Source of the DNA: Kutzneria chonburiensis
Lineage (GTDB): Bacteria; Actinomycetota; Actinomycetes; Mycobacteriales; Pseudonocardiaceae
Assembly: GCF_028622115.1 (NCBI RefSeq)
Contig: NZ_CP097263.1
Coordinates: 1,426,001-1,490,000 of the forward strand
Reading direction: 5' to 3'
DNA length: 64,000 nt
The notes under the pieces were generated by a model. The model saw nothing but the letters and a program-made list of their open reading frames with translations. It was not told the origin of the DNA and did not search any database. Of the stretch, positions 15,406-32,187 are shown piece by piece. Numbering within the stretch: the stretch's first letter is position 1; each line of letters opens with the position of its first letter. Both the position numbers and the translations under genes were made by a program.

Positions 15406-15517
15406 GTGTGGTTGGGGTGTTGTGCGGTGGTTGGGTTTGGTGGCCCGCCCACCCGCCCTTTGTGGGGGTTGGGTTTGGTGCGCGTGCTGCGTAGTTTTCC
15501 GGGGGTTCTTCGGTTTA

Positions 15518-15636
15518 TGGGTCGATTTGGTGTGGAGCCTCTGCGCGATGGCCCAAGGGCTAAAAGCGGGCAGGACGAGCCTGCCCTTGGCCTGTCAATT
15601 GTACGCCATCGCGCCCCTCCACACAAAATCGACCCA
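15518..15636 (+). repeat. Structured palindromic module, left end, copy 1
   Basis: A ~119-bp imperfect palindrome. Base stem TGGGTCGATTT / AAATCGACCCA; then GTGTGGAG / CTCCACAC; then GCGCGATGGC / GCCATCGCGC; an apical region has the hairpin GGGCAGG-ACGAG-CCTGCCC inside CCAA/TTGG. The ~100-bp core is identical in all four copies in this window. It could be DNA ends for mobility or a structured RNA. Confidence 0.85.
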
Positions 15637-15775
15637 ATTCGGGGAGTTGGCGGCGGAGGTGCGAGGGAATGCGGTGGCTGGCTTTGGCTCCGCTTTCCGA
15701 CCTTCGGTGGCCGTTGTCGCGCCGGTGGGGTGGTGGAGTTGCAAAACTTTTCCCGTTGTTCGTTTCCCGCTCCCA

Positions 15776-16918
15776 TTAGTGGCGCATGGGGTGGGTGGTG
15801 TGGTGGCGGCCGGCCGGGGTGATCCAGTGGGTGGTGCCGTCTGAATCCTGGGTCACTGTGTAGTTGTCGTGTTTGCGGTGGTGGTGCCAGGTGCAGAGCC
15901 CTTGCAGGTTGGTCGCCTCTGTCTGACCTGTGGGCCAGGGGGTGATGTGGTCGTGTTCCTGGATGGGCAGGGTGCAGCCGGGGGCGGTGCAGGTCCCGCC
16001 GGCCCGAGCAACGGACGTCTCTTTCATCAGTGCCGTGGGCCGGTAGGTGTCGGTGCTGATCGCGGAGATCTGCTGGTACTCGTCGAGGAGGAGTCCCCGG
16101 AAGGGGCCGTGCATGGCCAGCTCCCGGGCCGCCTCGGCCGCGATCGGGCCATAGCCGGCGAGCTGACCGGGGTCGTTGGTCAACCCGAGCAGGGTCTCCA
16201 TCGAGATCGTCACGAAGGTCCGCACGTTCCAGTTGGTGTGCTTGCCCCGCAGACGGTCCCAGAGCACATCGGAGCGTTTCTGGTCGGTGGTGCGCTCATC
16301 CTTCGGCAGCGACTTCGCATCCGCGCAGATCTGCTGGAACAGCTGGTGAGCCTCAGCAGCCGGGAGGATCCAGGTCAGCTTGGCCATACCGTCAGGCAAG
16401 GCAGAGAGTCCGACCTGCCGGTCGTCCTTGGCCTTGTGGCAGCGCTGCTCGTGGCCATCGGGGTCGGCCTTGGCGACCAGCGCGGTGGCCTTGCGACACA
16501 CCTGAGTCCGGGTCATACCACCGGCCTGCTCGGCCAGGGCCTGGTCGACGTCGGCGACCTGGGCCGGGTCGGCGAGGTGGCGGGTCCGCTCGTGGACCGC
16601 CGCGAACCGGGCCAGGTCGATCTCACCCCGGCGGAACCGCTCCGCCAGCGCAGGGTGAGTCTCCAGAGCAGCGGCGACCTCTTGCGACCGGGCCAGGGCC
16701 GGCTCCGAGACCTTCGTGGCCATCGCCAATTCGGTGAGGTCGTCGATGTGGTTGAGGGCCTCATGTTCGGCCCATTCACACACGGCCCGCACCTTCCGGG
16801 CCACCCCCACGAAATTGACCAACTGTTCTTGGGTCAGGCTTGCCGGATCCACTCCCACCACCAGATCGAACAGGGCCCCGATGGGTTCCAGGTGCTCGAT
16901 GTCGCGGGTGAGTTCCAT
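15776..16918 (-). CDS. DUF222/13E12 family HNH endonuclease, copy 1
   Basis: A 380-residue protein. Residues about 1-280 are the helical DUF222 (13E12-repeat) region. Residues about 310-360 are an HNH nuclease domain: Cys pair in TCTAPGC, DHI (the first His), NLQGLC and HHHRKHD. It is expected to cut DNA with a metal ion. The ATG at 16918 follows AAAGGT and is where family similarity begins; an extension to 17023 is unlikely. A LexA-like box lies 15-30 bases upstream. About 19 residues differ from the copy at 30636-31778 by eye. DUF222 proteins are repetitive and linked to mobile DNA in mycobacteria. Confidence 0.9.
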   Translation of the reverse strand: MELTRDIEHLEPIGALFDLVVGVDPASLTQEQLVNFVGVARKVRAVCEWAEHEALNHIDDLTELAMATKVSEPALARSQEVAAALETHPALAERFRRGEIDLARFAAVHERTRHLADPAQVADVDQALAEQAGGMTRTQVCRKATALVAKADPDGHEQRCHKAKDDRQVGLSALPDGMAKLTWILPAAEAHQLFQQICADAKSLPKDERTTDQKRSDVLWDRLRGKHTNWNVRTFVTISMETLLGLTNDPGQLAGYGPIAAEAARELAMHGPFRGLLLDEYQQISAISTDTYRPTALMKETSVARAGGTCTAPGCTLPIQEHDHITPWPTGQTEATNLQGLCTWHHHRKHDNYTVTQDSDGTTHWITPAGRHHTTHPMRH

Positions 16919-16932
16919 ACCTTTGAGAATAC

Positions 16933-16948
16933 TCGAACACAAGATCGA
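16933..16948 (-). promoter_or_regulatory. LexA-like SOS box, DUF222-HNH copy 1
   Basis: TCGAAC-ACAA-GATCGA differs by one base from the mycobacterial SOS box TCGAAC-N4-GTTCGA. Several 13E12 genes of M. tuberculosis are known LexA targets, which supports DNA-damage control here. Confidence 0.6.
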
Positions 16949-17032
16949 ACACGAATCCCTAACGGGTGAATCCCGCCAGGCAGAAAGGCTTTTCTTTCTC
17001 CCCGCCACACCGCAACACGGCAACTCGTACCA

Positions 17033-17155
17033 GTCGCGTGGATTTTGTGTGGAGGGGCGCGATGGCGTACAATTGACAGGCCAAGGGCAGGCTCGTCCTG
17101 CCCGCTTTTAGCCCTTGGGCCATCGCGCAGAGGCTCCACACCAAATCCACGCGAC
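17033..17155 (-). repeat. Structured palindromic module, right end, copy 1
   Basis: The same ~100-bp core as at 15518-15636, in inverted orientation. The base stem differs: GTCGCGTGGATTT / AAATCCACGCGAC. All changed positions still pair. It sits upstream of the HNH gene start, about 85 bases from the SOS box. Confidence 0.85.
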
Positions 17156-17190
17156 CACACCGAACTAATCCCCCGCTACGCCAATCCCCG

Positions 17191-18144
17191 CTACCCCAAC
17201 CCCAGTCCCAACCCAGCGAAGTCAACCAGCGGCTCAGTCCCCACAGGCAGCGACGAACGCCGCGCAGGATCAGCGATAAACGCAAGAATGGCGGACCGCA
17301 GCGCCCGAACAGCACGCGTCGGGTCAACCCCCTGACGATAAGCAAGCTGCACGATCCGCGTCATGCCCGCGTCAGCCGCAAACCGGGTCATACGAAAACG
17401 CCCCCCGACGACCGTGCTGGGCACGACCGCCGCCCCGACCCCCGCCCTGACGAGCTCAAGCACCGCGTCCATCTCGCCACCCTCGATGGCAAACGAAGGC
17501 TCGAACCCCGCCGCCCGGCAAGCATTAACCGTGACGTCGCGTACGTCATAACCACGCCGGAACATCACCAGCGGCACGTCAACCAGTTCCCGGACCGCCA
17601 GACGGTACTCCGACGGATGCGCATCGCCCGCAGAGATCAACACGAGCTCCTCAAGCAGAAGCTCGGTAGTGGACAACTGATGGTCACCGGCATGCCGAGG
17701 CCCGGCCAACAGCGCCAGGTCCAACGCACCCTCAGCCAACCGCGCCCGCAGATCACCGGACCCGCTTTCGTGTAGCTCCAACTGAATCCCGGGATACCGA
17801 CGGCGAAACGCGGACAGGATCGCCGGCAGCAGACCGGTGCACAGGCTGGGCGGCGCACCGAGCCGAACCCGGCCACGCTCGAGCTCGTCGAGCTCGCGGA
17901 TGGCCCGTCGCGCCCCCTCGATCTCGGCCAAGATGCGCCGGGCGATCGGCAACAGGGTCTCGCCGGCCTCGGTCAACGTCACGTTCCCCCGGATCCGGTG
18001 GAAAAGCGGCGCGCCGAGGTCGTGCTCCAAGGCCCGGATCTGTTGGGACAGCGAAGGTTGCGCCACCCGCACGTGCTCGGCGGCGCGCGTGAAGTGCCGG
18101 TGCTCGGCGACCGCGACGAAGTAGGCGAGCTGCTGGAACTGCAT
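17191..18144 (-). CDS. LysR-family transcriptional regulator
   Basis: A 317-residue LTTR. Residues 1-60 are the winged helix with the typical FVAVAEHRHFTRAAEHVRVAQ segment and SLSQQIRALE recognition helix. Residues about 90-300 are the periplasmic-binding-like co-inducer domain. It is divergent from sdhCAB with 40 bases between them, and an ATAG-N7-CTAT palindrome sits in that gap. That arrangement suggests it controls succinate dehydrogenase and itself. The effector is unknown. The ATG at 18144 was chosen by alignment with the family N terminus. Its 3' end lies 20-35 bases from element copy 1. Confidence 0.9.
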   Translation of the reverse strand: MQFQQLAYFVAVAEHRHFTRAAEHVRVAQPSLSQQIRALEHDLGAPLFHRIRGNVTLTEAGETLLPIARRILAEIEGARRAIRELDELERGRVRLGAPPSLCTGLLPAILSAFRRRYPGIQLELHESGSGDLRARLAEGALDLALLAGPRHAGDHQLSTTELLLEELVLISAGDAHPSEYRLAVRELVDVPLVMFRRGYDVRDVTVNACRAAGFEPSFAIEGGEMDAVLELVRAGVGAAVVPSTVVGGRFRMTRFAADAGMTRIVQLAYRQGVDPTRAVRALRSAILAFIADPARRSSLPVGTEPLVDFAGLGLGLG

Positions 18145-18153
18145 CCACCAATA

Positions 18154-18168
18154 ATAGCTGAAGGCTAT
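18154..18168. promoter_or_regulatory. LTTR-type binding site between lysR and sdhC
   Basis: ATAGC-TGAAG-GCTAT is a perfect 15-bp interrupted palindrome of the T-N11-A kind, centred between the two divergent starts. The binding protein is inferred from position. Confidence 0.55.
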
Positions 18169-18184
18169 CGATACGGTAGTTACG

Positions 18185-18943
18185 ATGTCTTTGACCTCTC
18201 GAAACACTCGGCCTAGCGTCCCTGAGGTGGTCATCGAAGCGGCGCAGCGGCCCGCCCGGCGGAACCGACCGGCCGCCCGGCAGTTCTGGGACTCGACGAT
18301 CGGCAAGAAGATCGTCATGGCGGTCACGGGCGCGGCCCTGCTCGGGTTCGTGTTCGCGCACATGGTCGGCAATCTCAAGACCTTCTTCGGTGCGAACGAC
18401 CTCAACGCCTACGCGCACTGGCTCCGCACGATCGGCGAGCCGGTGCTGCACTACGAGTGGTTCCTGTGGATCATGCGAACAGGCCTGATCCTCGCCGTGG
18501 TGCTGCACATCACCGCGACCGTGCAGTTGGTCCGCCGCGACCATCGGGCCCGCCCGGTGCGCTACGCCCACCGCCGGCCGATGAGGGCCACCTTCGCCGT
18601 GCACACGATGCGCTGGGGCGGGGCCACGCTGGCGGTGTTCATCGTCTGGCACATCCTCGACCTGACCGTCGGCAAGGTGAACCAGGACTTCATCGCCGGC
18701 GATCCGTACCACAACCTCGTGGCCGACTTCCAGGTCTGGTGGGTCAACGTCATCTACCTGGTCGCTCTGGCGATGCTCGGCCTGCACATCAACCACGGCT
18801 TCGCCAGCGCCGCCCGCACGCTCGGCGTCACCAGCGTGACCAGGGAACGGGCGCTCAAGGTCTTCGGCAGCGCGATGGCGATCGTCACCACGGCCGGCTT
18901 CGCGGTCGTGCCGATCGCCGTCATGACGGGATTGGTGCACTGA
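18185..18943 (+). CDS. sdhC: Succinate dehydrogenase cytochrome b subunit
   Basis: A 252-residue membrane protein of the b558 type (one large anchor subunit, as in Bacillus). Five membrane helices are visible: [19 protein letters not shown], the stretch around [43 protein letters not shown] and a C-terminal one. Histidines in FAHMVGN, VVLHITA, VWHILD and LHINH are candidate heme ligands. It anchors SdhAB and binds quinone. It begins the sdhCAB operon, with two bases to sdhA. Confidence 0.92.
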
Positions 18944-18944
18944 C

Positions 18945-20867
18945 ATGTACGTCGAAGGCAACCCGATCGCCGACACCGCCGCGCCGCAAGTCCCGCTGGA
19001 GAAGCGTTGGGACGAAAGGAAGTTCACCGCCAAACTGGTGAACCCGGCCAACCGGCGCAAGCACCGCGTGATCGTCGTCGGCACCGGCCTTGCCGGCGGC
19101 TCGGCGGGAGCGACACTGGCCGAGCAGGGCTATCACGTGGTGCAGTTCTGCTTCCAGGACTCCCCGAGGCGGGCCCACTCGGTCGCGGCGCAGGGCGGGA
19201 TCAACGCGGCCAAGAACTACCGCAACGACGGCGACTCGACCTACCGCCTGTTCTACGACACGGTGAAGGGCGGCGACTTCCGCTCCCGAGAGTCCAATGT
19301 GTACCGACTGGCCCAGGTCTCCGGGCAGATCATCGACCAGGCGGTGGCCCAGGGCGTGCCGTTCGCCCGTGAGTACGGCGGCCTGCTGGACACGCGGTCG
19401 TTCGGCGGCGTGCAGGTGCAGCGCACGTTCTACGCCCGAGGGCAGACGGGCCAACAGCTGCTGATCGGGGCGTACCAGGCGCTCTCGCGGCAGATCGACG
19501 CCGGCAACGTGGAGCTCCACGCCCGCACCGAGATGCTCGACCTGATCGTGGTCGACGGCAAGGCCCGTGGCATCGTGGCCCGCGACCTGATCACCGGGGA
19601 GATCACCACGCACCTGGCCGATGCCGTGGTGCTGGCCACCGGCGGCTACGGGAACGTGTTCTACCTGTCCACGAATGCCAAGGGCTCCAACGCGACCGCG
19701 ATCTGGCGGGCCCACAAGCGCGGCGCTTACTTCGCCAACCCGTGCTTCACGCAGATCCACCCCACCTGCATCCCGCGCTCCGGCGAGCACCAGTCGAAGC
19801 TGACCCTGATGAGCGAGTCGCTGCGCAACGACGGCCGGATCTGGGTGCCGAAAAGGCAGTCCGACACCCGGCCGCCGCAGGACATTCCCGAGGACGAGCG
19901 GGACTACTACCTCGAACGCCAGTACCCGAGCTTCGGCAACCTCGTGCCACGCGACATCGCTTCCCGCGCGGCCAAGAACATGTGCGACGCCGGGTACGGC
20001 GTCGGTCCGGGCGGCCTCGGCGTCTACCTGGACTTCGCCGATGCGATCAAACGCCTTGGCCGGCCGGCGATCGAGGCCCGCTACGGCAACCTGTTCGACA
20101 TGTACCAACGGATCACGGCCGAGGACCCGTACCAGGTCCCGATGCGGATCTACCCGGCGATCCACTACACCATGGGCGGATTGTGGGTCGACTACGACCT
20201 CCAGAGCACGATCCCCGGCCTGTTCGTCATCGGTGAAGCCAATTTCTCCGATCACGGCGCCAATCGGCTCGGGGCGTCGGCCTTGATGCAGGGCCTGGCC
20301 GACGGCTACTTCGTGCTGCCGGCCACCCTCAACGACTACCTCGGCGGCACCAAGCTCGACACCATCGACGCCGGCCGCGAGGAAGTCCGAAACACAGAAG
20401 CCCAGGTGCGGCAACGGATCGAGAAACTGCTCAACGTCAAGGGAAAGCGGTCGGTGGACTCGTTCCACCGCGAGCTGGGCGTGTTGATGTGGGACTACTG
20501 CGGCATGTCCCGCACCCGTGAGGGCCTGACCAAGGCCCTGGAACGGATTCCCGAGCTGCGCGCCGAGTTCTGGCGTGACGTCCGCATCCTCGGCTCAAAG
20601 GACGAGCTCAACCAGGAGTTGGAGAAGGCCAACCGGGTGGCCGACTTCCTTGAACTGGCGGAACTGCTGCTGATCGACGCACTGCACCGCGAGGAGTCGT
20701 GTGGCGGGCACTTCCGCGAGGAGCACCAGACGCCCGAGGGCGAGGCCCAGCGCGACGACGGCAACTTCGCTTACGTCGCCGCGTGGGAGCACGGCGAGAT
20801 TCCCGTGCTGCACCGCGAGGAACTGGCCTTCGAGCACGTCCACCCCACCCAGCGGAGCTACACGTGA
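18945..20867 (+). CDS. sdhA: Succinate dehydrogenase flavoprotein subunit
   Basis: A 640-residue flavoprotein. The FAD-binding [10 protein letters not shown] is near residues 46-55. The covalent FAD histidine lies in [10 protein letters not shown]. Catalytic-site blocks include [17 protein letters not shown] near residues 425-440. It oxidises succinate to fumarate and passes electrons to SdhB. It is somewhat longer than the ~580-residue enteric type, as in b558-type enzymes. The stop overlaps the sdhB GTG (GTGA). Confidence 0.95.
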
Positions 20868-21607
20868 AACTCACCGTTCGCATCTGGCGGCAGGCCGGTC
20901 CCAAGGCTGACGGCAAACTCGTCGCCTACCCGGTCGACGACGTCAGCCCGGACATGTCGTTCCTGGAGCTGCTCGACGTTCTCAACCAGGACCTGATCGC
21001 GGCCGGCGAGGAACCGGTGGCCTTCGACCACGACTGCCGCGAGGGCATCTGCGGCTCCTGCGGCGTTGTGATCAACGGCCAGGCCCACGGCCCCGAGCGC
21101 ACGACCTCGTGCCAGCTGCACCTGCGCTCGTTCTCCGACGGCGACACGATCGACGTGGAACCGTGGCGGGCCAAGGGTTTCCCGATCATCAAAGACCTGG
21201 TCGTGGACCGGTCGGCGCTGGACCGGATCGTGCAGGCCGGCGGCTACATCACCGCCCCGACCGGCAGCGCGCCGGACGCGCACGCCACGCCGGTGCCCAA
21301 GCCGTCGGCCGACCTGGCCTTCGACAACGCCACCTGCATCGGCTGCGGGGCCTGCGTCGCCGCCTGCCCCAACGGCTCGGCGATGCTGTTCACCGCGGCC
21401 AAGGTGACCCACCTCAGCCTGCTGCCGCAGGGCGAGCCCGAACGGGCGCAACGGGTGCTGGACATGGTCGACACCATGGACGACGAGGGCTTCGGCGGCT
21501 GCACCAACACCGGCGAGTGCGTCGGGTCCTGTCCCAAGGGCATTCCGTTCGCCAGCATCGCCACGCTCAACCGGGAATTCCTGAAGGCCAGCCGCACCAG
21601 GCGGTGA
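20864..21607 (+). CDS. sdhB: Succinate dehydrogenase iron-sulfur subunit
   Basis: A 247-residue protein. The N-terminal ferredoxin domain has a [2Fe-2S] set in [10 protein letters not shown] plus a later Cys. The C-terminal domain has [14 protein letters not shown] and [14 protein letters not shown], the cysteines for the [4Fe-4S] and [3Fe-4S] centres. It carries electrons from the flavin to the membrane subunit. The GTG start overlaps the sdhA stop by 4 bases. A weak hairpin follows. Confidence 0.95.
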
Positions 21608-21617
21608 ATCCTGCTCG

Positions 21618-21640
21618 CTTGTCCGAGTCACCCGGACGAG
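21618..21640 (+). terminator. Hairpin after sdhB
   Basis: CTTGTCCG and CGGACGAG form an 8-bp stem with one G-T pair and a 7-base loop. Confidence 0.45.
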
Positions 21641-21703
21641 TTCAGTGAACGTTAAACTTGGGACCTTCTCGGTGTCACGAAACGTGGCCTACGTTCCTTG
21701 ACC

Positions 21704-22603
21704 ATGGACGCGGTGCGGGCACGTGGGATCACCAAGTGCTTCGGCGACGTCGTTGCACTGGACGGCGTCGACCTCGACCTCGCGGCCGGGCAGATCCACG
21801 GGCTGGTCGGGCCGAACGGGGCCGGCAAGACGACGCTGCTGGGGCTGCTGCTGGGCTTGGCCGTGCCGGACGAGGGCAGCCTGGAGATCCTCGGCGCGCC
21901 GGTCGGCCGGGCGCTGACCGCACCGGACGGTGTCGCCGGCTTCGTGGACGGCCCCGGCCTGTATCCGCAGCTCACCGCCCGACAGAACTTGGCCGCGCTG
22001 GCCAAGCTGCGAGGGCGCTCTGCAAGCATCGACGACGTGTTGGCCGATGTCGGGCTCAGCGACGTCGCCGATGACAAGGTGCGCGGCTTCTCCCTCGGTA
22101 TGCGGCAACGACTCGGCCTCGCCGCGGCGCTGTTGACCGAGCCCCGACTGCTGGTGCTGGACGAGCCATCCAACGGTCTCGATCCAGCCGGCAAACGGCA
22201 TGTGCACGGCGTCCTCACTCGATTGGCTGATAACGGTGTGACCGTTATCGTGTCCAGCCATCGCATGGACGACGTCGAGGCGCTGTGCACCGAGGTCACC
22301 ATTCTCGCCACCGGCCGCGTGGTTTTCACCGGCCCACTCGACAAACTGTCCGCCGAGAACCGCGAACTCGACTATCGGTTACGCACCTCGGATCCATTAG
22401 TCGCAGCCGAGACCGCCGCCGAGACGCCCGGTATCACCGTCGTCGACAGCGGCGAGCTTCTCGTTGTGCGAGCGGAGATTCCGGCCCTGGACGAGCTCGT
22501 GTCACGCCTGGTCCGGGCCGGCACGGCCGTGCGGGAGCTGGCCCCGGTCGTGTCGCCGCTGGAAGCGGCATTCCTGGCGCTGACCGAGGAGGCCGCCCGA
22601 TGA
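21704..22603 (+). CDS. ABC transporter ATP-binding protein
   Basis: A 299-residue ATPase. Walker A is GPNGAGKTT near residues 38-46. The signature is FSLGMRQRLGLAAAL and Walker B is LLVLDEPSNGLDP. A C-terminal extension of about 80 residues follows, as in CcmA-type exporters. It pairs with the permease that overlaps its stop (ATGA). The substrate is unknown. The ATG at 21704 was taken over a TTG two codons earlier. Confidence 0.93.
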   Translation: MDAVRARGITKCFGDVVALDGVDLDLAAGQIHGLVGPNGAGKTTLLGLLLGLAVPDEGSLEILGAPVGRALTAPDGVAGFVDGPGLYPQLTARQNLAALAKLRGRSASIDDVLADVGLSDVADDKVRGFSLGMRQRLGLAAALLTEPRLLVLDEPSNGLDPAGKRHVHGVLTRLADNGVTVIVSSHRMDDVEALCTEVTILATGRVVFTGPLDKLSAENRELDYRLRTSDPLVAAETAAETPGITVVDSGELLVVRAEIPALDELVSRLVRAGTAVRELAPVVSPLEAAFLALTEEAAR

Positions 22604-23931
22604 CCGCCGTCCTCGAACGTGCCGAGGTCCCGGTGGTCCGCGGCTACCGGTTCGAGATGGTCAAGTTGGTGTCGCAGTGGCGGATCCGGCTGCTGGTGCT
22701 GGCCTGCTGGCTGGCCCCGGCGCTGTTCGTGGCGGCGGTGAGCCAGCAGAGCGACCTGCCGACCGACACCTTGTTCGGCCGCTGGATGAACATCTCCGGC
22801 TGGGCCGGCCCGTTGGTGCTGCTGGGCTTCGCCGGCACGTATGCGTTGCCGCTGCTGACTTCCGTGGTGGCCGGCGACGTGTTCGCGGCCGAGGACCGGC
22901 TCGGCACGTGGCGGCATCTGCTGGTGGCCATGCGGTCCTACCGCCGGATCTTCGTGTCGAAGGCGCTGGCCAGCCTGACCGTGATCCTGCTGCTGGTCAT
23001 AGGGTTGGCTGTCTCCGGCGCGGTCGGCGGGCTTGTGGCTGTCGGCAGCCAACCGCTCGTCGCCCTGGACGGCCAACTTCTGCCGCCGGGCGAGGCCGCC
23101 GGACTGGTCGCACTGGCCTGGATCTGTGTGCTGGCACCGACTTTGGCGCTGGCCGGTATCGGGCTCCTCGGCTCGGTGGTGTTCGGCCGCTCTCCGATGG
23201 GCTTGCTGCTGCCGGCCGTCGTGGCGCTGGGCATGGGCGTTGCGCAGCTGTTGCCGCTGCCCGTCGCCGTCCGCCTCGCCCTGCCGAGCTACGCCTTCAT
23301 CGCCTGGACCGGCCTGTTCACCACACCGGCGCAACTCGGCCCCCTGCTGATCGGCGTTGCGGTCAGCCTGGTGTGGGCCGTCGCGGCGACTTCGTTGGCG
23401 TACATCGTGTTCATGCGCCGCGACTTCACCAACCTGAGCAACGACGGCGTCGGCCGCCGAGCCCTCACCGTCGCCGCCGCCCCGCTGGTCGGGCTGCTGG
23501 TCGTCACGATGGGCGTGCTGGCCGTGGCCTCGCCGTCGACCGGCTCCGGCATCGACCAGAACAAGGTCCAGCAGTCCGTGGCCACGGCCTTCGGCCGCCT
23601 CTACCGGCTGCAGACCCAGCAGCTCCACCGCCCTGACGTGACGGAGGAGCAGTTGGCCAGCACGGTCGCCTGCACGAAGGGCGATGGGCTCGTCGAGGCG
23701 GACGGCCCCGGCAACGACTGGCGCTGCGTCGTGTCGTGGCACCTGCCCGGCACGACCATCGCGGGCCAGGCGATCTACCAGCTCGACATCGCCTCCGATG
23801 GCCAGTACGTGGCCGACGGCGATGGGCCGAAGGAAGTCAACGGCTACTTCCAGGTGCACACCCCGAACGGGGACCAACCCAACCCGCTGTGGCAGTTCGA
23901 CGGCCACCTCGAACTGCTGTCGAAGGGATGA
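22600..23931 (+). CDS. ABC transporter permease with extracytoplasmic C-terminal domain
   Basis: A 443-residue protein with about six hydrophobic segments in residues 20-325 (for example LVLACWLAPALFVAAV, GPLVLLGFAGTYALPLL and LLVVTMGVLAVASP). A hydrophilic C-terminal region of about 115 residues follows, with two Cys (VACTKGDG and WRCVV) that could form a disulfide outside the cell. It overlaps the ATPase gene by 4 bases and ends 4 bases before the phosphoesterase gene. The three genes probably form one operon. Confidence 0.85.
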   Translation: MTAVLERAEVPVVRGYRFEMVKLVSQWRIRLLVLACWLAPALFVAAVSQQSDLPTDTLFGRWMNISGWAGPLVLLGFAGTYALPLLTSVVAGDVFAAEDRLGTWRHLLVAMRSYRRIFVSKALASLTVILLLVIGLAVSGAVGGLVAVGSQPLVALDGQLLPPGEAAGLVALAWICVLAPTLALAGIGLLGSVVFGRSPMGLLLPAVVALGMGVAQLLPLPVAVRLALPSYAFIAWTGLFTTPAQLGPLLIGVAVSLVWAVAATSLAYIVFMRRDFTNLSNDGVGRRALTVAAAPLVGLLVVTMGVLAVASPSTGSGIDQNKVQQSVATAFGRLYRLQTQQLHRPDVTEEQLASTVACTKGDGLVEADGPGNDWRCVVSWHLPGTTIAGQAIYQLDIASDGQYVADGDGPKEVNGYFQVHTPNGDQPNPLWQFDGHLELLSKG

Positions 23932-23935
23932 GCTC

Positions 23936-26644
23936 ATGCAGGTGACACGCCGCAGAAAGTCGACCGGAAGACGAAGCCGGCCAAGAGTCCTGGTCGCCGG
24001 CGCCGCAACCCTGGCGCTGGTCGTCCTGGGAACCGGCGTCGGCTCGGCGTCGACCAAGCAGTTCGGCACCGAGCGGGTCGGCGACATCACGCCGCAGGGC
24101 CAGGTGATCTCCAGCGACCAGTACCTGAACCCGATCGGCGACCGGCTGGTCCTGAACAACGGCAAGATCATGGCCTCCGCGGTCAGCCCCGACGGCAGCC
24201 ACCTGGCCGCGCTGATCACCGACGGCGGGCTGGCGCTGGCCGTCGTCGACCTGAAGAGCTGGAAGGTGCAGCAGCTCGTCGGCAACTCCGCCACCGCCGA
24301 TCTGAAGATCCCCGGCAACGACGTCGGCCAGGAAGGCCCGTCGTACTCGCCGGACGGCAAGACGCTGTGGATGGCCCAGACCGACGGCTACCGCCGCTTC
24401 ACGGTCAACGCCGACGGCTCGCTGGCCACCCCGACCTTCGTCAGCATCCCGGCCGACGGCGCCAAGCACGGCCTGCCGGCGCAGGCGGTGTTCTCGGCCG
24501 ACGGCACCACCGTGTACGCCGCGGTCAACGGCCAGAACCGGGTCGTGGCGATCAACGCGGCCAGCGGAGCCATCACGCAGAGCTGGGCCGTCGGCAACGC
24601 GCCACGTGACCTGGTCCGCATCGGCTCGAAGCTCTACGTCAGCAACGAGGGCGGCCGCCCCGCGGTCCCCGGCGACACCACGCTGAACTCGTACAACACC
24701 CAGGTGCCCGCCAATCCGGCGACCGGCGCGACGACGACCGGCACGGTCAGCGTGATCGACCCGGCCGGCTCGACGGTCCGCAGCATCGATGTCGGCCTGC
24801 ACCCGACCGCCTTGTACGCCAAGGGAAACACGCTGTTCGTGGCCAACACCGCGAGCAACGACGTGTCGGTGATCGACACCGGTCGGGACAAGGTCGTGCA
24901 GACGATCGCGACCCGGCCGTGGCCCGAGGCGACCGTCGGCTACGAGCCCGACGGCATCACCGTCACCGGCGACGGGCACCTGCTCGTCACGCTCGGCCGG
25001 GCCAATGCCGTTGCCGTGTACCGGTTCTCGAAGGCCCAGGAGCCGGTGAGCTACGTCGGCCTGCTGCCCACGGACTACTTCCCGACGGCCATCGCCACGG
25101 TCGGCAACACGATCGTCGTCTCCAACACGCGGGGCATCGACGCCCGCCGACCCACCACGGCGGCCGGCCACGGCACCCACGACACCACGTCCAGCGTGCA
25201 GAAGTTCAAGCTGCCCGATGACCGCACCATCCGCGGCTACACCGGCAAGGTGTTCCAGCAGAACGGCTGGACCAACAACGCGGCGCAGACGGCCAACGGC
25301 CACAAGGCCCAGCCGGTGCCGGTACCGCAGCGGCTCGGCGACCCGTCGACGATCAAGCACGTGTTCCTGATCGTCAAGGAGAACCGGACCTACGACCAGG
25401 TGTACGGGGACGACGCGCGCGGCAGCGGCGACCCGACGCTGGCCCAGTTCGGCGAGAACGTCACGCCCAACCAGCACGCGCTGGAGCAGCAGTTCGGCCT
25501 GTACGACAACACCTACGACATCGGCACCAACTCGGCCGAGGGCCACAACTGGCTGATGCAGGCCGACAATCCCGAGTACACCGAGTCCTCGGCCGGCGAG
25601 TACCTGCGCAGCTACGACACCGAGGACGACGCGCTCGGCCACCAGGAGTCCGGCTTCCTCTGGACCGGCGTCCAGGCCACCGGCAAGTCGGTGCGCGACT
25701 TCGGCGAGTTCCAGCAGTTCCTGACCAAGCCGGCCGGCGCGTCGTGGCAGAACCTGTACTGCGACACCAAGAACATGGTCGCCACCGGGCAGCCCACCGC
25801 CTACCCGCTGGTGTCGTCCTCGCCCATCCCGTCGCTCAACAGCGTGTCCGTGCCGGGCTTCCCGAAGTTCGACACCTCGGTGCCGGACATCTACCGCGAG
25901 CAGATCTGGCAGCAGGACTTCGCCCAGCACGGGCCGGCCAACCTGAACATGTTCTGGCTGTCCAGCGACCACACCGGCGGCCCGCCCAACCCGGCCGCGC
26001 AGGTCGCCGACAACGACCTGGCCGTCGGCCGGATCGTCGACACCATCTCGCACAGCCCGTACTGGAAGGACTCGGCGATCTTCATCGCCGAGGACGACTC
26101 GCAGGCCGGCCTCGACCACGTCGACGGGCACCGTGCGCCGATCCAGATCATCAGCCCGTGGGCCCGGCACGGTGTGGTCGACGACCACTACTACTCGCAG
26201 ATCACCATGATCCGGACCATCGAGCAGATCCTCGGCATGCACCCGATGAACCAGAAGGACACCGCCGCAACGCCGATGGCCTCCGCGTTCACCACCAAGC
26301 CCGACTTCACGCCGTACACCGCCGTGCCCAACCGCACCTCGCTCACCCTGGGCCTATCCACCCCGCCGAGCTGCGGCAACGACGTCGTCACGCAGTACGC
26401 CCAGCCGTCGACCACCGTGCCGGCGGACAAGCAGGGGCTGGCCGCGCAGTGGCAGCAGTGGGCCGGCAAGCAGCGCCTGACCGGGTCCGACGCTGTTCCC
26501 GACTACGCCAACCCGCTGCAGATGGACCACTGGACGTGGTACCAGACGCACGGCTGGACCACGCCGTACCCGGGGGAGAAGCAGCTCTACGCACCGGACC
26601 AGGTGCCCGGCGGCTTCATCCCGTCCTCCGACTCGGACGGCTGA
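23936..26644 (+). CDS. Secreted beta-propeller and phosphoesterase-family protein
   Basis: A 902-residue protein. Residues 1-35 form a signal peptide (RRRKSTGRRSR then a hydrophobic core). Residues about 60-450 hold YncE-like beta-propeller repeats with GQTVYAAVNGQ-like and LFVANTASNDVSVIDT blocks. Residues about 470-890 match the phosphoesterase family (PF04185, phospholipase C-like): HVFLIVKENRTYDQVYGD at the start and FIAEDDSQAGLDHVDGHR later. It would hydrolyse a phosphoester outside the cell. It follows the ABC permease directly. The real substrate is unknown. Confidence 0.9.
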   Translation: MQVTRRRKSTGRRSRPRVLVAGAATLALVVLGTGVGSASTKQFGTERVGDITPQGQVISSDQYLNPIGDRLVLNNGKIMASAVSPDGSHLAALITDGGLALAVVDLKSWKVQQLVGNSATADLKIPGNDVGQEGPSYSPDGKTLWMAQTDGYRRFTVNADGSLATPTFVSIPADGAKHGLPAQAVFSADGTTVYAAVNGQNRVVAINAASGAITQSWAVGNAPRDLVRIGSKLYVSNEGGRPAVPGDTTLNSYNTQVPANPATGATTTGTVSVIDPAGSTVRSIDVGLHPTALYAKGNTLFVANTASNDVSVIDTGRDKVVQTIATRPWPEATVGYEPDGITVTGDGHLLVTLGRANAVAVYRFSKAQEPVSYVGLLPTDYFPTAIATVGNTIVVSNTRGIDARRPTTAAGHGTHDTTSSVQKFKLPDDRTIRGYTGKVFQQNGWTNNAAQTANGHKAQPVPVPQRLGDPSTIKHVFLIVKENRTYDQVYGDDARGSGDPTLAQFGENVTPNQHALEQQFGLYDNTYDIGTNSAEGHNWLMQADNPEYTESSAGEYLRSYDTEDDALGHQESGFLWTGVQATGKSVRDFGEFQQFLTKPAGASWQNLYCDTKNMVATGQPTAYPLVSSSPIPSLNSVSVPGFPKFDTSVPDIYREQIWQQDFAQHGPANLNMFWLSSDHTGGPPNPAAQVADNDLAVGRIVDTISHSPYWKDSAIFIAEDDSQAGLDHVDGHRAPIQIISPWARHGVVDDHYYSQITMIRTIEQILGMHPMNQKDTAATPMASAFTTKPDFTPYTAVPNRTSLTLGLSTPPSCGNDVVTQYAQPSTTVPADKQGLAAQWQQWAGKQRLTGSDAVPDYANPLQMDHWTWYQTHGWTTPYPGEKQLYAPDQVPGGFIPSSDSDG

Positions 26645-26674
26645 CCCCAGCCATCCGGTAGTCCGACGTCTGGA

Positions 26675-26721
26675 CACGCCCCCGCCCGGCCCGGACAATG
26701 CGGCCGGGGGGTGGGGGCGTG
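26675..26721 (+). promoter_or_regulatory. Hairpin covering the start of the STAND-WD40 gene
   Basis: CACGCCCCC (26675-26683) pairs with GGGGGCGTG (26713-26721), with more C-G pairs inside. It ends on the GTG start codon, so it could both end upstream transcription and hide the ribosome binding site. Confidence 0.45.
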
Positions 26722-29700
26722 CCTCGACGTGAGCAGCCTTTGCGGCTGGGGGAAGAATCGCTGGTGGCTTTCGCCACGGATCTGCGGGCGTTGCGGGCGA
26801 AGGCAAGCAATCCGGCGTACCGGGAGCTGGGCCGGCGGGTGCACTACTCGGCGGCGACGCTGTCCGAGGCGGCCTCGGGACGCAAGCTGCCGAGCCTGCC
26901 GGTGACGCTGGCCTACGTGCGCGGCTGCGACGGCGACGTGGTGGCCTGGGAGCAGCGCTGGCGTCAGGTGGCGGCGGAGCTGGCCGACGAGCCGGCGGCG
27001 GAGCCGGACGAGCAGGAGCCGCCCTATGCCGGGCTGTCCACGTTCCGGCCCGAGCAGGTGGACAAGTTCTTCGGCCGCACCAGGTTGATCGACGAGGTGC
27101 TGGCCCGGCTGGCCGCGAACCGTCTGGTCGGCGTGTTCGGGCCGTCCGGCGCCGGCAAGTCCTCGCTGCTGCGGGCCGGCGTGATCGCGCGCTGGCAGGG
27201 GCCGGGCCGGTCGGTGGTGCTGTTCAATCCCGGTGAACACCCGTCGAGCCGGCTGGACGCGTTGTCCGCCAACGGTGAGACGCTGATCGTGGTCGACCAG
27301 TTCGAAGAGGTGTACACCCACTGCGCGGATCCGGTCGAGCGGGCCGAGTTCATCGCACGGCTGGTCGGCCTGGCCGATGATGCCGGCGGGCAGTGCCGCG
27401 TGCTGTTGGGCGTGCGGGCGGACTTTTACGGCCACTGCATGGATTCACCCGATCTGTTGGCGCGCTTGAGGGATGCTCAGGTAGCGGTGGGCGCGATGAC
27501 CACCGAGGAGCTGCGCGAGGTCATCGTCGAGCCGGCCGCCCGGGCCGGCGCGCGGGTGGAGAGCGCCCTGCTGACGGCGTTGGTGGCGCAGGTCGGCGGC
27601 CGGGCGGGGCTGCTGCCGTTGCTGTCCCACGCGCTGCTGGAGACGTGGCGAAGACGGCGCGGCAATACGTTGACACTGAACGGTTTCGAGGACACCGGCG
27701 GCATCGAGGGCGCGCTGGCCAAGACCGCCGAGGACGTCTACGCCGAGTTCGAGCCTGCGCAGCAACTGTTGGTGCGACAGCTTTTCCTGCGGCTCACGGC
27801 GGTCGGCGACGGCATCAACGACGTCAAGGCCCGGATCGGCCGGGACGAGCTGGACGCCGACATGTCGTTCGTGCTCGAACGACTGGCTGCGGCACGGTTG
27901 GTCGTGCTGGACACCGATTCCGTGGAGATGACTCACGAGGCGCTGCTGCGGTCGTGGCCGCGGCTGGGGCGCTGGCTGGCCGAGGATCGGGACGGCCGCC
28001 GCGTGCACCGGCAGCTCACCGAGGCGGCCAACACGTGGGAGTCGCTCGACCGCGATCCCGGCGCGCTCTACCGGGGTTTGCGCCTCGACTCGGCCCGTGA
28101 GTGGGACGGCCGTCGCCGTGAGCAGCTCACTGCCCGTGAACGGCAGTTCCTTGACGCCAGCTTGGCCGCCCGTGATCAGGAGCTGGCCCGTGAGCGGCGG
28201 CAACGCCTGCGGCTACGGCAGTTGGTGGCCGTGCTTTCGGTGCTGCTGCTCGTGGCCGTTTCTGCTGGTGTGTATGCCTTCCAGGCCGAGCTCGGCGCGG
28301 CCGAGGACCGCAACGTCGCCGTGTCGCAGCGGGTGGCGATGGAGGCGTTGGCGGAGTGGCCCGCCGATCCGGCGCGATCGGCGCAGCTGGCTTTGGCGGC
28401 GTACCGGCTCTCACCGACTCAGCAGGCCCGGAGCGCGTTGCTGAGCACGTATGGCACCCCGTACGCCACGCAGCTGTCCGGGCACAAGGCGGCGGTCGGC
28501 GGGGTGGCCTTCTCGTCCGACGGCCGGTTGATGGCCAGCGCCAGCATGGACGGCACCGTCCGGCTGTGGGACAGCCACGACGTCCACCACACCCGGCCGT
28601 TGAGCACCATCGGCGGGCAGATCCTCGGCGTGAACGGCGTCGTCTTCGGGCATGGCGTGCTGGTCGGCGTGGGCTGGGACCACACCGTGCGGATCTGGGA
28701 CATCAGCGATCCTCTGCATCCTGGGCCGCCGGTGATTCTCAAGGGGCACACCGAGTCCGTCACCTCGGCGGCGATCACCGCCGACGGCCGGACGCTCGTC
28801 ACCGGCAGCCTCGACCGCACCGTACGGATCTGGGATCTGACGAATCCCAAGCACCCCGCTCAGCTGGGCGATCCGCTGCCCCACGCCGGCGGCGTGTTCG
28901 CCGTGGCGTTGCGCGGTGACGGGAAGCTGCTCGCCACCGCCGGCAGCGATCGCACGATCCGGTTGTGGGACATGGCTGATCTTCGGCATCCGGTTGCCGT
29001 CGGCATGCTGGTCGGCCACACCGACCAGGTCGGGGCGCTCGCGTTCAGCCCGGACGGACAGCGTCTGGTCAGCGGCAGCGCCGACCAGACCGTGCGGCTG
29101 TGGGACGTCGCCGATCCCGCGCGGGCCACCCAGGCCGCGTCGGTCCTGGCTCGCGCCGCCGAGATCCGCTCCGTCGCGTTCGCCCCGGACGGGCGGACCG
29201 TGGCTACCGCCAGCCTTGACCGTACGGTGCGGCTGTGGACCGTCGGACGGGCCGACCTCGCCCAGTTCGCGGTGCTGGCCGGGCACACCGGGCAGGTCTA
29301 TGCCGCCACGTTCAGCCCCGACGGGCGCACCCTGGCCACCGCCAGCGAGGATCGGACCGTGCGGCTGTGGGACGTCGCCGGGCCGGTGTTCGGCGGGCAC
29401 ACCGATGCCGTGCTCGACGTGGCGTTGGCACCCAACGGGAAGGCCGTCGCGACCGCCGGATACGACGGCACCGTCCTGGTGCGGCAGTTCGCCGACCCCG
29501 AGCGGCCGGTCGTGCTGGCCGCGCACCAGGAGGCCGTGAACTCCGTCGCGTTCGCGCCCGACAGCCGCACCATGGCCTCGGCGTCGAAGGACGGCACGGT
29601 GCGTTTCTGGGACACCCGCGACCTGCTGCACATCACCCCGCTCGGCGAGCCGCTGGCCGGGTTCACCCAGGCCGTCAACACCGTGGCGTACAGCCACGAC

Positions 29701-30381
29701 GGCAAGCTGCTCGCCGCCGGCGGCAGCGACCGTGCCGTGATGCTGCTGGACGTGAGCGATCCTCGGTCGCCGCGGCCCATCGCCTCGTTGGAGATGACCG
29801 CCGGCATCGACGAGCTCGCGTTCGACCCGGCCGGCCGGCGGCTGGCCGCGGCTGGCGACGACGGCACCATCCGGATCTGGAACCTCGCCGACCGTGGGAA
29901 GCCGGTTTTGCTGGCCGGGCACGGCGCCGAGGTGAAGTCGGTGGCGTTCAGCCCGGACGGGCGGTTCCTGGCCAGCAGCAGCTTCGACGCCACCGTGCGG
30001 CTGTGGGACCTGGACGATCCCGCCGACCACATCGACCCGATCACCCACCCCGACCGGGTGTATTCGGTGGCGTTCAACGGGGATGGAAGCGTGTTGGCGT
30101 CCGCCGGCGCTGACGGGCGGGTGCGGTTGTGGGACCTGCACGATGTTCGTCGTCCCGTTGCGCTCGCGGACCTCACGGGGCATACCGAGCGTGTCTATTC
30201 GGTCGTTTTCGGTGCTGACGGGCACACATTGGCCAGTGCGAGTCAGGACCATACTGCTCGGCTGTGGGACGTTGATCCGGAGGCTGCTGCCGGTCGTGTG
30301 TGTGGGATGGTCGCTCCGGGGTTGGGGCGGGCGGATTGGGAGCGGTACTTTCCTGGGTTGGGGTTTCGCGCGCCGTGCTGA
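26719..30381 (+). CDS. HTH, STAND-type NTPase and WD40-repeat protein
   Basis: A 1220-residue protein. Residues about 10-90 are an XRE-like helix-turn-helix (LRALRAKASNPAYRELGRRV, SEAASGRKLPS). Residues about 105-480 are an nSTAND1-type NTPase: Walker A GPSGAGKSS near residues 141-149 and Walker B LIVVDQFEEVYT. A membrane-like helix follows (VLSVLLLVAVSAGVYAF). Residues about 590-1200 hold roughly 13-14 WD40 repeats, many ending VRLWD. Proteins of this build are signal-sensing switches; several STAND groups act in anti-phage conflict. The GTG at 26719 matches the start of the paralogue at 45579. Confidence 0.9.
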   Translation: MPRREQPLRLGEESLVAFATDLRALRAKASNPAYRELGRRVHYSAATLSEAASGRKLPSLPVTLAYVRGCDGDVVAWEQRWRQVAAELADEPAAEPDEQEPPYAGLSTFRPEQVDKFFGRTRLIDEVLARLAANRLVGVFGPSGAGKSSLLRAGVIARWQGPGRSVVLFNPGEHPSSRLDALSANGETLIVVDQFEEVYTHCADPVERAEFIARLVGLADDAGGQCRVLLGVRADFYGHCMDSPDLLARLRDAQVAVGAMTTEELREVIVEPAARAGARVESALLTALVAQVGGRAGLLPLLSHALLETWRRRRGNTLTLNGFEDTGGIEGALAKTAEDVYAEFEPAQQLLVRQLFLRLTAVGDGINDVKARIGRDELDADMSFVLERLAAARLVVLDTDSVEMTHEALLRSWPRLGRWLAEDRDGRRVHRQLTEAANTWESLDRDPGALYRGLRLDSAREWDGRRREQLTARERQFLDASLAARDQELARERRQRLRLRQLVAVLSVLLLVAVSAGVYAFQAELGAAEDRNVAVSQRVAMEALAEWPADPARSAQLALAAYRLSPTQQARSALLSTYGTPYATQLSGHKAAVGGVAFSSDGRLMASASMDGTVRLWDSHDVHHTRPLSTIGGQILGVNGVVFGHGVLVGVGWDHTVRIWDISDPLHPGPPVILKGHTESVTSAAITADGRTLVTGSLDRTVRIWDLTNPKHPAQLGDPLPHAGGVFAVALRGDGKLLATAGSDRTIRLWDMADLRHPVAVGMLVGHTDQVGALAFSPDGQRLVSGSADQTVRLWDVADPARATQAASVLARAAEIRSVAFAPDGRTVATASLDRTVRLWTVGRADLAQFAVLAGHTGQVYAATFSPDGRTLATASEDRTVRLWDVAGPVFGGHTDAVLDVALAPNGKAVATAGYDGTVLVRQFADPERPVVLAAHQEAVNSVAFAPDSRTMASASKDGTVRFWDTRDLLHITPLGEPLAGFTQAVNTVAYSHDGKLLAAGGSDRAVMLLDVSDPRSPRPIASLEMTAGIDELAFDPAGRRLAAAGDDGTIRIWNLADRGKPVLLAGHGAEVKSVAFSPDGRFLASSSFDATVRLWDLDDPADHIDPITHPDRVYSVAFNGDGSVLASAGADGRVRLWDLHDVRRPVALADLTGHTERVYSVVFGADGHTLASASQDHTARLWDVDPEAAAGRVCGMVAPGLGRADWERYFPGLGFRAPC

Positions 30382-30412
30382 GGTGGGTGCTGGGCGGGAA
30401 TAATTCGGTGTG

Positions 30413-30531
30413 TGGGTCGATTTGGTGTGGAGCCTCTGCGCGATGGCCCAAGGGCTAAAAGCGGGCAGGACGAGCCTGCCCTTGGCCTGTCAATTGTACG
30501 CCATCGCGCCCCTCCACACAAAATCGACCCA
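30413..30531 (+). repeat. Structured palindromic module, left end, copy 2
   Basis: Same core and same base stem (TGGGTCGATTT / AAATCGACCCA) as 15518-15636. Confidence 0.85.
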
Positions 30532-30635
30532 ATTTGCGGAGTTGGCGATCGGTGTGTGAAGGAATGGCGGTGGCCGGGTTTTGGCTCCCACTGTGCACCC
30601 TTGTGGTGGCCATTGTCCGCCGTTCGTTTCCCCGG

Positions 30636-31778
30636 TTAGTGCCGCAGGGGGCGGGTGATGTGGTGGCGGCCGGCCGGGGTGATCCAGTGAGTGGTGCCGT
30701 CTGAATCCTGGGTCACTGTGTAGTTGTCGTGTTTGCGGTGGTGGTGCCAGGTGCAGAGCCCCTGGAGGTTGGTGGCTTGGGTGCGGCCTGTGGGCCAGGG
30801 AGTGATGTGGTCGTGTTCCTGGATGGGGAGGGTGCAGCCGGGTGCGGTGCAGGTGCCGCCGGCCCGAGCAACGGACGTCTCCTTCATCAGCGCCGTGGGC
30901 CGGTAGGTGTCGGTGCTGATCGCGGAGATCTGCTGGTACTCATCCAGCAGGAGCCCTCGGAACGGGCCGTGCATCGCGAGTTCGCGGGCTGCCTCGGCGG
31001 CGATGGGGCCATAGCCGGCGAGCTGGCCGGGGTCGTTGGTCAACCCGAGCAGGGTCTCCATCGAGATCGTCACGAAGGTGCGCACGTTCCAGTTGGTGTG
31101 CTCGCCCCGCAGACGATCCCAGAGCACATCCGACCGCTTCTGGTCGGTGGTGCGCTCATCCTTCGGCAGCGACTTGGCGTCGGCGCAGATCTGCTGGAAC
31201 AGCTGGTGAGCCTCAGCAGCCGGGAGGATCCAGGTCAGTTTGGCCATGCCGTCGGGCAAGGCCGAGATCCCGACCTGCCGGTCGTTTTTGGCTTTGTGGC
31301 AGCGCTGTTCGTGGCCATCGGGATCGGCCTTGGCGACCAGGGCGGTGGCCTTGCGGCACACCTGAGTCCGGGTCATGCCACCGGCCTGTTCGGCCAGGGC
31401 CTGGTCGACTTCGGCGACCTGGGCCGGGTCCGACAGGTGGCGGGTCCGCTCCCACACGGCCGCGAACCGGGCGAGGTCGATCTCACCCCGGCGGAACCGC
31501 TCCGCCAGCGCAGGATGAGTCTCCAGAGCAGCTGCGACCTCTTGCGACCGGGCCAGCGCCGGCTCTGACACCTTCGTCGCCATCGCCAATTCGGTGAGGT
31601 CGTCGATGTGGTTGAGGGCCTCATGTTCGGCCCATTCACACACCGCCCGCACCTTCCGGGCCACCCCCACAAAATTGACCAACTGTTCTTGGGTCAGGTT
31701 CGCCGGATCCGCACCCACCACCAGATCGAACATGGCCCCGGTGAGTTCCATGTTCTCGATCTCGCGGGTGAGTTCCAT
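30636..31778 (-). CDS. DUF222/13E12 family HNH endonuclease, copy 2
   Basis: A 380-residue protein, about 95% identical by eye to the copy at 15776-16918. The HNH residues (TCTAPGC, DHI, NLQGLC, HHHRKHD) are unchanged, so both copies look active. Eight of the differences fall in the first 30 residues, and the rest are scattered. The 3' flank to the left module is shorter than in copy 1 (about 105 versus 140 bases), so the copies have diverged in the non-coding part. The ATG at 31778 was chosen as in copy 1. A LexA-like box precedes it. Confidence 0.9.
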   Translation of the reverse strand: MELTREIENMELTGAMFDLVVGADPANLTQEQLVNFVGVARKVRAVCEWAEHEALNHIDDLTELAMATKVSEPALARSQEVAAALETHPALAERFRRGEIDLARFAAVWERTRHLSDPAQVAEVDQALAEQAGGMTRTQVCRKATALVAKADPDGHEQRCHKAKNDRQVGISALPDGMAKLTWILPAAEAHQLFQQICADAKSLPKDERTTDQKRSDVLWDRLRGEHTNWNVRTFVTISMETLLGLTNDPGQLAGYGPIAAEAARELAMHGPFRGLLLDEYQQISAISTDTYRPTALMKETSVARAGGTCTAPGCTLPIQEHDHITPWPTGRTQATNLQGLCTWHHHRKHDNYTVTQDSDGTTHWITPAGRHHITRPLRH

Positions 31779-31792
31779 ACCTTTGAGAATAC

Positions 31793-31808
31793 TCGAACAC
31801 AAGATCGA
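31793..31808 (-). promoter_or_regulatory. LexA-like SOS box, DUF222-HNH copy 2
   Basis: Identical to the box of copy 1: TCGAAC-ACAA-GATCGA, at the same distance from the start codon. Confidence 0.6.
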
Positions 31809-31892
31809 ACGCGAATCCCTAACGGGTGAATCCCGTCCGACAGAAAGGCTTTTCTTTCTTCCCGCCACACCACAACACGGCAACTCCGACTA

Positions 31893-32015
31893 GTCGCGTG
31901 GATTTTGTGTGGAGGGGCGCGATGGCGTACAATTGACAGGCCAAGGGCAGGCTCGTCCTGCCCGCTTTTAGCCCTTGGGCCATCGCGCAGAGGCTCCACA
32001 CCAAATCCACGCGAC
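31893..32015 (-). repeat. Structured palindromic module, right end, copy 2
   Basis: Same core and base stem (GTCGCGTGGATTT / AAATCCACGCGAC) as 17033-17155, inverted relative to the left module. A CCAAC-rich low-complexity stretch follows at about 32040-32085. Confidence 0.85.
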
Positions 32016-32187
32016 CACACCGAATTAATCCCCCCACCCAAACCAACCCACCAACCCACCAACCACCCGCACCACCCCACACGACGCCCCCGGCTTACGC
32101 CGCTCGGGTCGCCCAGCGTGCGCAACCGCTGAACCAGTCCGACGCTGTGCTCGTGTGTCGAGCAGGGGCACGAAGTGGAGGACGGTC

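Follow-up and report, generated by a model that had tools for sequence, protein, structure and literature searches.

Inverted, covarying hairpins bracket a dispersed DUF222-HNH gene in Kutzneria chonburiensis and point to a possible repeat-nuclease partnership

The stretch of DNA analyzed here, referred to as the window, comprises 64,000 nucleotides (nt) of the Kutzneria chonburiensis genome (contig NZ_CP097263.1, positions 1,426,001 to 1,490,000). It contains two ~1.6-kb copies of an element in which a minus-strand gene for a DUF222-HNH protein lies between two ~120-nt imperfect palindromes, hereafter called modules, of opposite orientation. In copy 1, the module downstream of the gene occupies 15513-15641 (+ strand, core 15524-15630), the gene itself (15776-16918, – strand) encodes 380 amino acids (aa), with a longer frame also open from a TTG codon at 17023, and the inverted module upstream of the gene occupies 17030-17158 (– strand, core 17041-17147). 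Between the latter two features lies a LexA-like box, TCGATCTTGTGTTCGA (16933-16948, – strand), which has one mismatch to TCGAAC-N4-GTTCGA, the sequence that we take to be the LexA consensus. Copy 2 consists of a gene-downstream module at 30408-30536 (+ strand, core 30419-30525), the DUF222-HNH gene at 30636-31778 (– strand), a LexA-like box at 31793-31808 (– strand), and an inverted gene-upstream module at 31890-32018 (– strand, core 31901-32007). Over 1143 aligned nt, the two genes share 92.5% identity. A first-pass annotation of the window had placed four modules at these positions, inverted around each gene, and its report of a shared core proved correct: 107 bp are identical in all four modules. 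It had also observed that the base stems differ between left and right modules with pairing retained, and we found the same, the stem being GGGTC/GACCC in the gene-downstream modules and GTCGCGTG/CACGCGAC in the gene-upstream modules.

Each of the four window modules is predicted to form a single long imperfect hairpin with internal loops. Folding of the modules as single-stranded DNA gave z scores of -7.8 to -8.9, with none of 200 shuffled sequences as stable in any of the four cases, and the predicted RNA fold was very stable on either strand. A Pfam scan of the element proteins of this genome revealed no transposase gene inside the element, DUF222 being its only gene, as the first-pass annotation had reported.

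We then examined the source genome, a single contig of 10,411,187 bases (10.41 Mb) that is labeled G000 in our sample; the other genomes and all loci likewise carry G- and L-numbers, G001 to G006 being six congeners. A 123-base module query located 31 module sites, comprising 15 inverted pairs around a DUF222-HNH gene and one single module, and a covariance-model search returned the same 31 sites with none further at an E value of 0.01. The two copies originally noticed are both real, and the true count is far higher. All 31 sites sit at a gene copy. The single module adjoins a diverged copy (74% aa identity) with no second module and is a one-sided relic; all other copies lie within 0.33-3.85 Mb. 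The 15 pairs were all intergenic according to a crude codon-based gene caller, and in 12 of them the gene that follows on the 3′ side has its end facing the element. The outer flanks are unrelated past roughly 20-25 nt on the 5′ side, and on the 3′ side a tail of up to ~85 nt is common to many copies and fades out. In many but not all copies (L031, L034-L041, L043, and L045), this tail beyond the gene-downstream module contains a G-rich run of the AAAGGGCGGGTGGGCGGGCC type. The sequence is, in short, a dispersed ~1.6-kb element. The window copies are only 15 kb apart and have identical cores, as would be expected of one ordinary segmental duplication, an explanation that the first-pass annotation had allowed for. 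The presence of 15 dispersed pairs across 3.5 Mb, the outer flanks of which are unrelated, excludes this explanation, as does the occurrence of the same element in other species, and we consider its likelihood negligible. The same genome also contains five copies of a second DUF222-HNH lineage (G000:C1 positions 3643974, 4024080, 4388169, 9824981, and 10237793), which share 32-33% aa identity with the window gene and are without strong paired hairpins.

The core is near-identical only inside the source genome and differs in other species, so a real test of covariation was possible. After the removal of 17 duplicates from 115 modules, we aligned 98 distinct modules from five Kutzneria genomes. 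In the 38-pair structure, 97.3% of the cells held standard pairs, compared to 88.2% after shuffling; double changes were present at 14 of the 38 pairs, and pairing fell to 41-47% when the partner was slid by one to three columns. The number of further pair types in this set was no higher than in shuffles. In a set of 44 modules from ten genomes, 96.7% of the cells paired, against a mean of 72.3% after shuffling, and 33 of 38 pairs showed double changes; in 25 modules from eight more genomes the corresponding values were 98.7% and 32 of 38. These last two alignments were fitted to the covariance model and lean toward its structure, although their slid controls still fell near 40-48%; in both, as in the strand count below, the weaker strand match at a given place was dropped. 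Judging from these alignments, the covariation is strong and the pairing of the hairpin is under selection, as had been proposed from the window alone. The first-pass annotation had considered that the core might occur only in this context and lack covariation elsewhere; covariation was instead present in other genomes, and solo modules exist.

Certain unpaired positions are conserved as well. Across 49 modules in 12 genomes, we observed A-G-C-.-T-A on the 3′ arm (84-98%) and an unpaired C.C on the 5′ arm (98%). The window's own modules, those of G002, and one G003 lineage carry AATTGTA in place of AGCNTA, so that the closing TA alone is common to all of these. The covariance model matched the hairpin in 10 of 60 relatives, 24 of which are same-order genomes from outside the family Pseudonocardiaceae and gave no match. 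In a search of 200 Pseudonocardiaceae genomes with this model, the filters of which lose weak matches, the hairpin was present in 26, representing 10 of 46 genera. Among the genomes searched in this way, modules were met only in Pseudonocardiaceae. Rfam gave no match at the gathering threshold in the window and none of relevance in ten loci at a relaxed threshold. A hit to MIR9672 on the L336 module (38.1 bits versus a gathering threshold of 74) was taken as chance.

The association between hairpin and DUF222-HNH gene extends to several genomes. Among the six congeners sampled, G001, G002, G003, and G006 carry the element, with modules that have diverged; in G002, the modules found were all gene-upstream ones, most genes are broken, and the copies look decayed. 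Neither the gene nor the module was matched in G004. In G005, which contains 33 DUF222 matches, each of the 16 module sites is situated upstream of a same-strand DUF222 match, at a distance of no more than about 1.3 kb (by hand comparison), and the copies scanned had no strong stem downstream of the gene, leaving a hairpin on one side only. Bracketing of DUF222-HNH genes by the hairpin is seen in Kutzneria and in one other genus; elsewhere the hairpin stands alone. In that other genus (G035), seven of the 17 module sites belong to DUF222 elements at six loci and 10 are solo; at five of the six loci, the 5′ end of the element bears a second hairpin that is unrelated to the module, and at the sixth, the module is found at both ends. 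DUF222-HNH proteins form the largest recurrent cluster among the neighbors of 49 loci (10 rows; the next largest has 5).

Regarding the second hairpin, which is ~90 nt long (TTTARCACG...CGTGYTAAA) and lies at the 5′ end of DUF222 elements in G035 (L223, L224, L226, L227, L230, and L279), its stems differ between copies with pairing mostly kept, as assessed by eye and uncounted, and it may be a second hairpin family. Solo modules, which are dispersed and have sharp edges, also occur as close inverted doublets that contain no gene, have a gap of about 150-185 bases, and are in the opposite relative orientation to the elements (L337, 2464-2599 and 2783-2918; L262, 2613-2774 and 2922-3083). One G035 solo module is about 260 bases from a transfer-messenger RNA gene (L221, 2942-3315, – strand).

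Paired hairpins are not a general DUF222 trait. Of 197 genomes sampled from the class, 142 had DUF222 matches, and we took 30 loci as best matches, one of which (L293) was without a usable frame. None of the remaining 29 loci had a strong stem on both sides (threshold 15, set after 32 control windows gave a highest score of 14), and two (L295 and L298) had one on one side. Among 12 further family loci (L273-L284), a strong stem was present on one side in four and on both sides in none.

The window protein matches DUF222 (PF02720, 5.8e-22), and its predicted structure consists of a helical DUF222 domain and a C-terminal HNH zinc ribbon (mean predicted local distance difference test score, 85.4). 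In 45 aligned sequences, C310 and C315 are invariant, and H324, C342, H345, and H346 are nearly so. The Pfam HNH model did not match the copy 1 protein and does match some other copies. No whole-fold match to solved structures was significant; the clear sequence relatives in the PDB are the HNH domains of IscB (profile match, E 8e-8 to 2e-6). IscB itself has a RuvC domain split by the HNH domain and is paired with the HEARO/omega RNA. The element resembles this arrangement in its HNH domain and in having a structured element adjoining the gene. It differs in that no RuvC domain was found in five proteins scanned, in which Pfam recognized only DUF222 and, in some copies, HNH; in that its hairpins lie on both sides of the gene and are inverted; and in that none matches the HEARO/omega families of Rfam. 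The lack of RuvC and of a HEARO/omega match rules out IscB/HEARO identity.

A tree of 87 protein rows groups the 15 full copies of the source genome in one clade (100/100); G001 and G005 form one clade each, G003 has two lineages, and G006 forms one clade save one long-branch row (L158, L128, and L129 were flagged as long branches). The tree topology indicates that the elements were amplified separately in each lineage. In six G001 loci (L092, L097, L106, L111, L130, and L131), the protein match crosses an in-frame stop near the N-terminus and the frame opens later, so that the true start may be a later one. A LexA-like box with one mismatch is present upstream of 15 of the 16 genes in the source genome, and boxes with two mismatches were located upstream of 6 of 16 copies in G003, 7 of 27 in G006, and 2 of 5 in G002. 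The first-pass annotation had described DUF222 genes as repetitive in mycobacteria and often SOS controlled; the gene is indeed multicopy here, and these boxes are compatible with the second point.

The box would also be expected if DUF222-HNH were a domesticated gene with a host or phage-defense role, the transcription of which the flanking hairpins insulate. The protein is far better conserved across the source genome's copies (92-96% aa identity) than are fourfold sites (25.5% differences), which again would fit domestication. No PADLOC model matches the gene, however, and 15 to about 30 gene copies per genome together with lineage-specific amplification look selfish. We therefore regard domestication as very unlikely.

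Site incompatibility between gene copies rises with distance (p = 0.02 in the source genome and 0.002 in four other sets). This supports recombination or gene conversion between copies, although recurrent mutation at saturated sites may contribute to the incompatibility. The same tendency is described for REP13E12 loci, which are grouped with HNH/DUF222 in one report (PMC10589994) and for which 87 gene-conversion events in Mycobacterium tuberculosis are given in another (PMC13061034). One G003 element (L120) is a hybrid with end modules of the two different G003 module types, which suggests an exchange of ends between lineages.

We looked for target-site duplications in the 48 elements for which our pattern found both modules (15 of 16 in the source genome, 12 of 16 in G003, 6 of 8 in G001, 15 of 27 in G006, and 0 of 5 in G002). 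At fixed offsets up to 40 nt from the module edge, a test that very short or variably placed duplications could escape, no direct repeat of at least 5 bases occurred in more than 3 of the 48; a 4-base match in 15 elements consists of the palindrome CCGG, which belongs to the inverted ends of the G006 elements. Together with the lack of a transposase inside the element, this rules out a DDE insertion sequence as far as these tests reach. At an E value threshold of 0.001, the Y1 transposase model PF01797, which represents the one transposase family covered by this search, left 12 of the 15 genomes that bear modules without a match and gave fragments or short matches in G003, G033, and G395. Carriage by phages or plasmids is unsupported: viral contigs did not match one exact 20-base module pattern, and plasmids and phages gave distant partial protein matches only.

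These results bear on the possibility that the hairpins are an independent repeat, similar to a miniature inverted-repeat transposable element or a repetitive extragenic palindrome (REP), which is moved by another enzyme and between two copies of which the DUF222-HNH gene was captured. Several genera have more solo modules than linked ones, as this would predict, and the unrelated second hairpin in five G035 elements and the one-sided elements of G005 fit it too. It sits poorly with the lack of a Y1 match in most module-bearing genomes, subject to the scope of that search, with the lack of a duplicated target, and with a DUF222-HNH association that arises repeatedly with different hairpins. 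On balance, we think gene capture unlikely.

The reading that we favor, to which we assign a probability of roughly 0.45, is a partnership like that of REPINs (REP doublets forming hairpins) and RAYTs (REP-associated tyrosine transposases), with an HNH nuclease in place of the Y1 transposase and with copies spread or converted through break repair. Each copy would be a selfish DNA element consisting of a hairpin, the DUF222-HNH gene with its LexA-like box, and the same hairpin inverted. The hairpin, either as a folded single strand or extruded from the duplex, would serve as the recognition site of the protein, and a cut at or beside it would allow break repair to copy or convert the element from another copy without target-site duplication. 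Solo hairpins would then be bare recognition sites, representing unoccupied sites, relics, or non-autonomous copies served in trans, and the box may subject the gene to SOS induction. We favor this proposal because of the 15 inverted pairs at unrelated loci, the separate amplification per lineage, and the strong covariation; the linkage of 16 of 16 modules in G005 and 7 of 17 in G035 and the rank of DUF222-HNH as top neighbor cluster; and the between-copy recombination, which agrees with REP13E12 gene conversion, and the LexA-like box in 15 of 16 copies.

Several observations weigh against it. We did not recover an empty/filled allele pair, having tried one copy, the left flank of which was not syntenic; of the solo modules and empty sites that the first-pass annotation had hoped to see listed, only the former were thus found. 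Hairpins without an adjoining DUF222 gene are common, so something may spread them without a linked nuclease: the 27 sites in G027, G032, and G033 include not one at a DUF222 gene (at L240, a 30-bit fragment lies some 1.5 kb off), and the same holds for the 20 loci taken from G060, G359, G395, G402, and G414. In a recount of 33 solo loci in G027, G032, G033, and G035, 27 have a right-hand gene with its end facing the module and 21 a left-hand gene with its end facing it, the former of which fits an RNA role as well. At two or fewer mismatches, a LexA-like box was found in 0 of 8 G001 and 0 of 11 G005 copies. The fourfold differences show the source genome's gene copies to be old, so recent mobility is unsupported. 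A large excess of module over gene conservation is limited to the source genome (cores 98.7% identical versus 91.5% nt identity for genes in 15 copies) and elsewhere shrinks to 83-98% versus 81-93%: 93.5 versus 89.4% and 97.7 versus 93.0% in G003, 90.7 versus 88.3% in G001, and 83.4 versus 81.0% in G006 (calculated without L153, L156, L157, and L158). Finally, diversity in the source genome drops abruptly at the module edges, with no homogenization gradient seen from module to gene, and this sharp edge is more readily explained by selection on the module than by conversion tracts that begin there.

The orientation of genes beside solo modules raises the alternative that the hairpin is a host-serving structured RNA of gene 3′ ends, acting as a terminator, stabilizer, or processing signal, and that DUF222-HNH genes carry it or insert beside it. 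Among the distinct genome-pair-type cases of departure from Watson-Crick pairing in the two outer helices, 30 are A.C and 9 are G.U on the modeled strand (p = 0.0011). Since A.C on the modeled strand is G.U on the complement, which reads into the module from the right-hand gene end, the complement may be the strand that folds; this excess is only a hint at single-strand folding, which strand-biased mutation could mimic. The very stable RNA fold is likewise expected of such an RNA. Against this, A.C and G.U stood at 4 to 0 in eight new genomes and at 4 to 3 in further loci of earlier genomes; Kutzneria modules are inverted pairs with a gene between, and every source-genome site is at a gene copy; no Rfam family matches; and the solo copies, dispersed and sharp-edged, resemble a mobile repeat more than part of a host gene. 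We consider a host RNA function rather unlikely.

The REPIN/RAYT-like reading can also be set beside known systems. Free-standing HNH homing endonucleases are the sole gene of their elements, have reticulate copies, and leave no duplicated target, and in all three respects the present element is similar. The presumed target here is a hairpin repeat, not a conserved gene, and the one attempt at an empty allele did not recover it. With REPINs and RAYTs, as characterized in two reports (PMC3116915, PMC3733652), the element has several features in common: imperfect palindromes are dispersed in intergenic DNA and also form hairpins as inverted pairs; the nuclease gene adjoins repeats of its own type; further repeats stand alone in the genome; and repeat types are specific to lineages. 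REPs are given there as 20-40 bp (PMC3733652), whereas the module, with its covarying multi-loop structure, measures about 120 nt; RAYTs are reported to be single-copy (PMC3116915), whereas 15 or more repeat-bracketed gene copies occur here; and the enzyme is DUF222-HNH, not a Y1 (HUH, IS200-type) transposase. By analogy, the element probably works like REPIN-RAYT and yet falls outside its membership, given the far larger repeat and the lack of a Y1 match in 12 of 15 genomes. REP13E12 offers a close parallel for the gene, namely DUF222 with a C-terminal HNH zinc ribbon, multiple copies, and frequent recombination or gene conversion between them, and these regions are described as having no defined biological function (PMC10589994, PMC13061034). 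It differs in that paired hairpins were absent from the 29 class-wide DUF222 loci and modules were confined to Pseudonocardiaceae among the genomes searched.

We found no paper that connects DUF222-HNH genes with hairpins at their sides, in a literature search whose coverage excluded bioRxiv as such and the majority of subscription papers. The bracketed genes, together with solo hairpins kept folded by matched mutations in related bacteria, point to a repeat-nuclease partnership undescribed so far. The initial observation is confirmed on a scale much larger than noted; the mechanism is a proposal, and there is a real chance of a new class. Such a class of mobile system, in which a damage-linked DUF222-HNH nuclease would read the hairpin shape and the unpaired loop bases and multiply both elements and bare hairpins by nuclease-driven copying, seems to us possible, if tentative. 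It would provide a first biological role for the DUF222/13E12 family and an HNH counterpart of REPIN-RAYT of independent origin; if the nuclease acts on the hairpin, repeat-nuclease partnerships arose at least twice with unrelated enzymes. Already, the DUF222-HNH gene is linked to a partner sequence that is defined and conserved in structure and that supplies a concrete and cheap biochemical substrate, and the hairpin is a structured repeat family, with very strong covariation, that is absent from Rfam.

Beside copy 2, the window encodes a 1227-aa protein with an nSTAND1 NTPase domain and WD40 repeats (26698-30381, + strand), the gene for which ends 27 bases before the copy 2 module. Its PADLOC matches (HEAT-ARM_XIII and mad8) look driven by the repeats and the NTPase domain.

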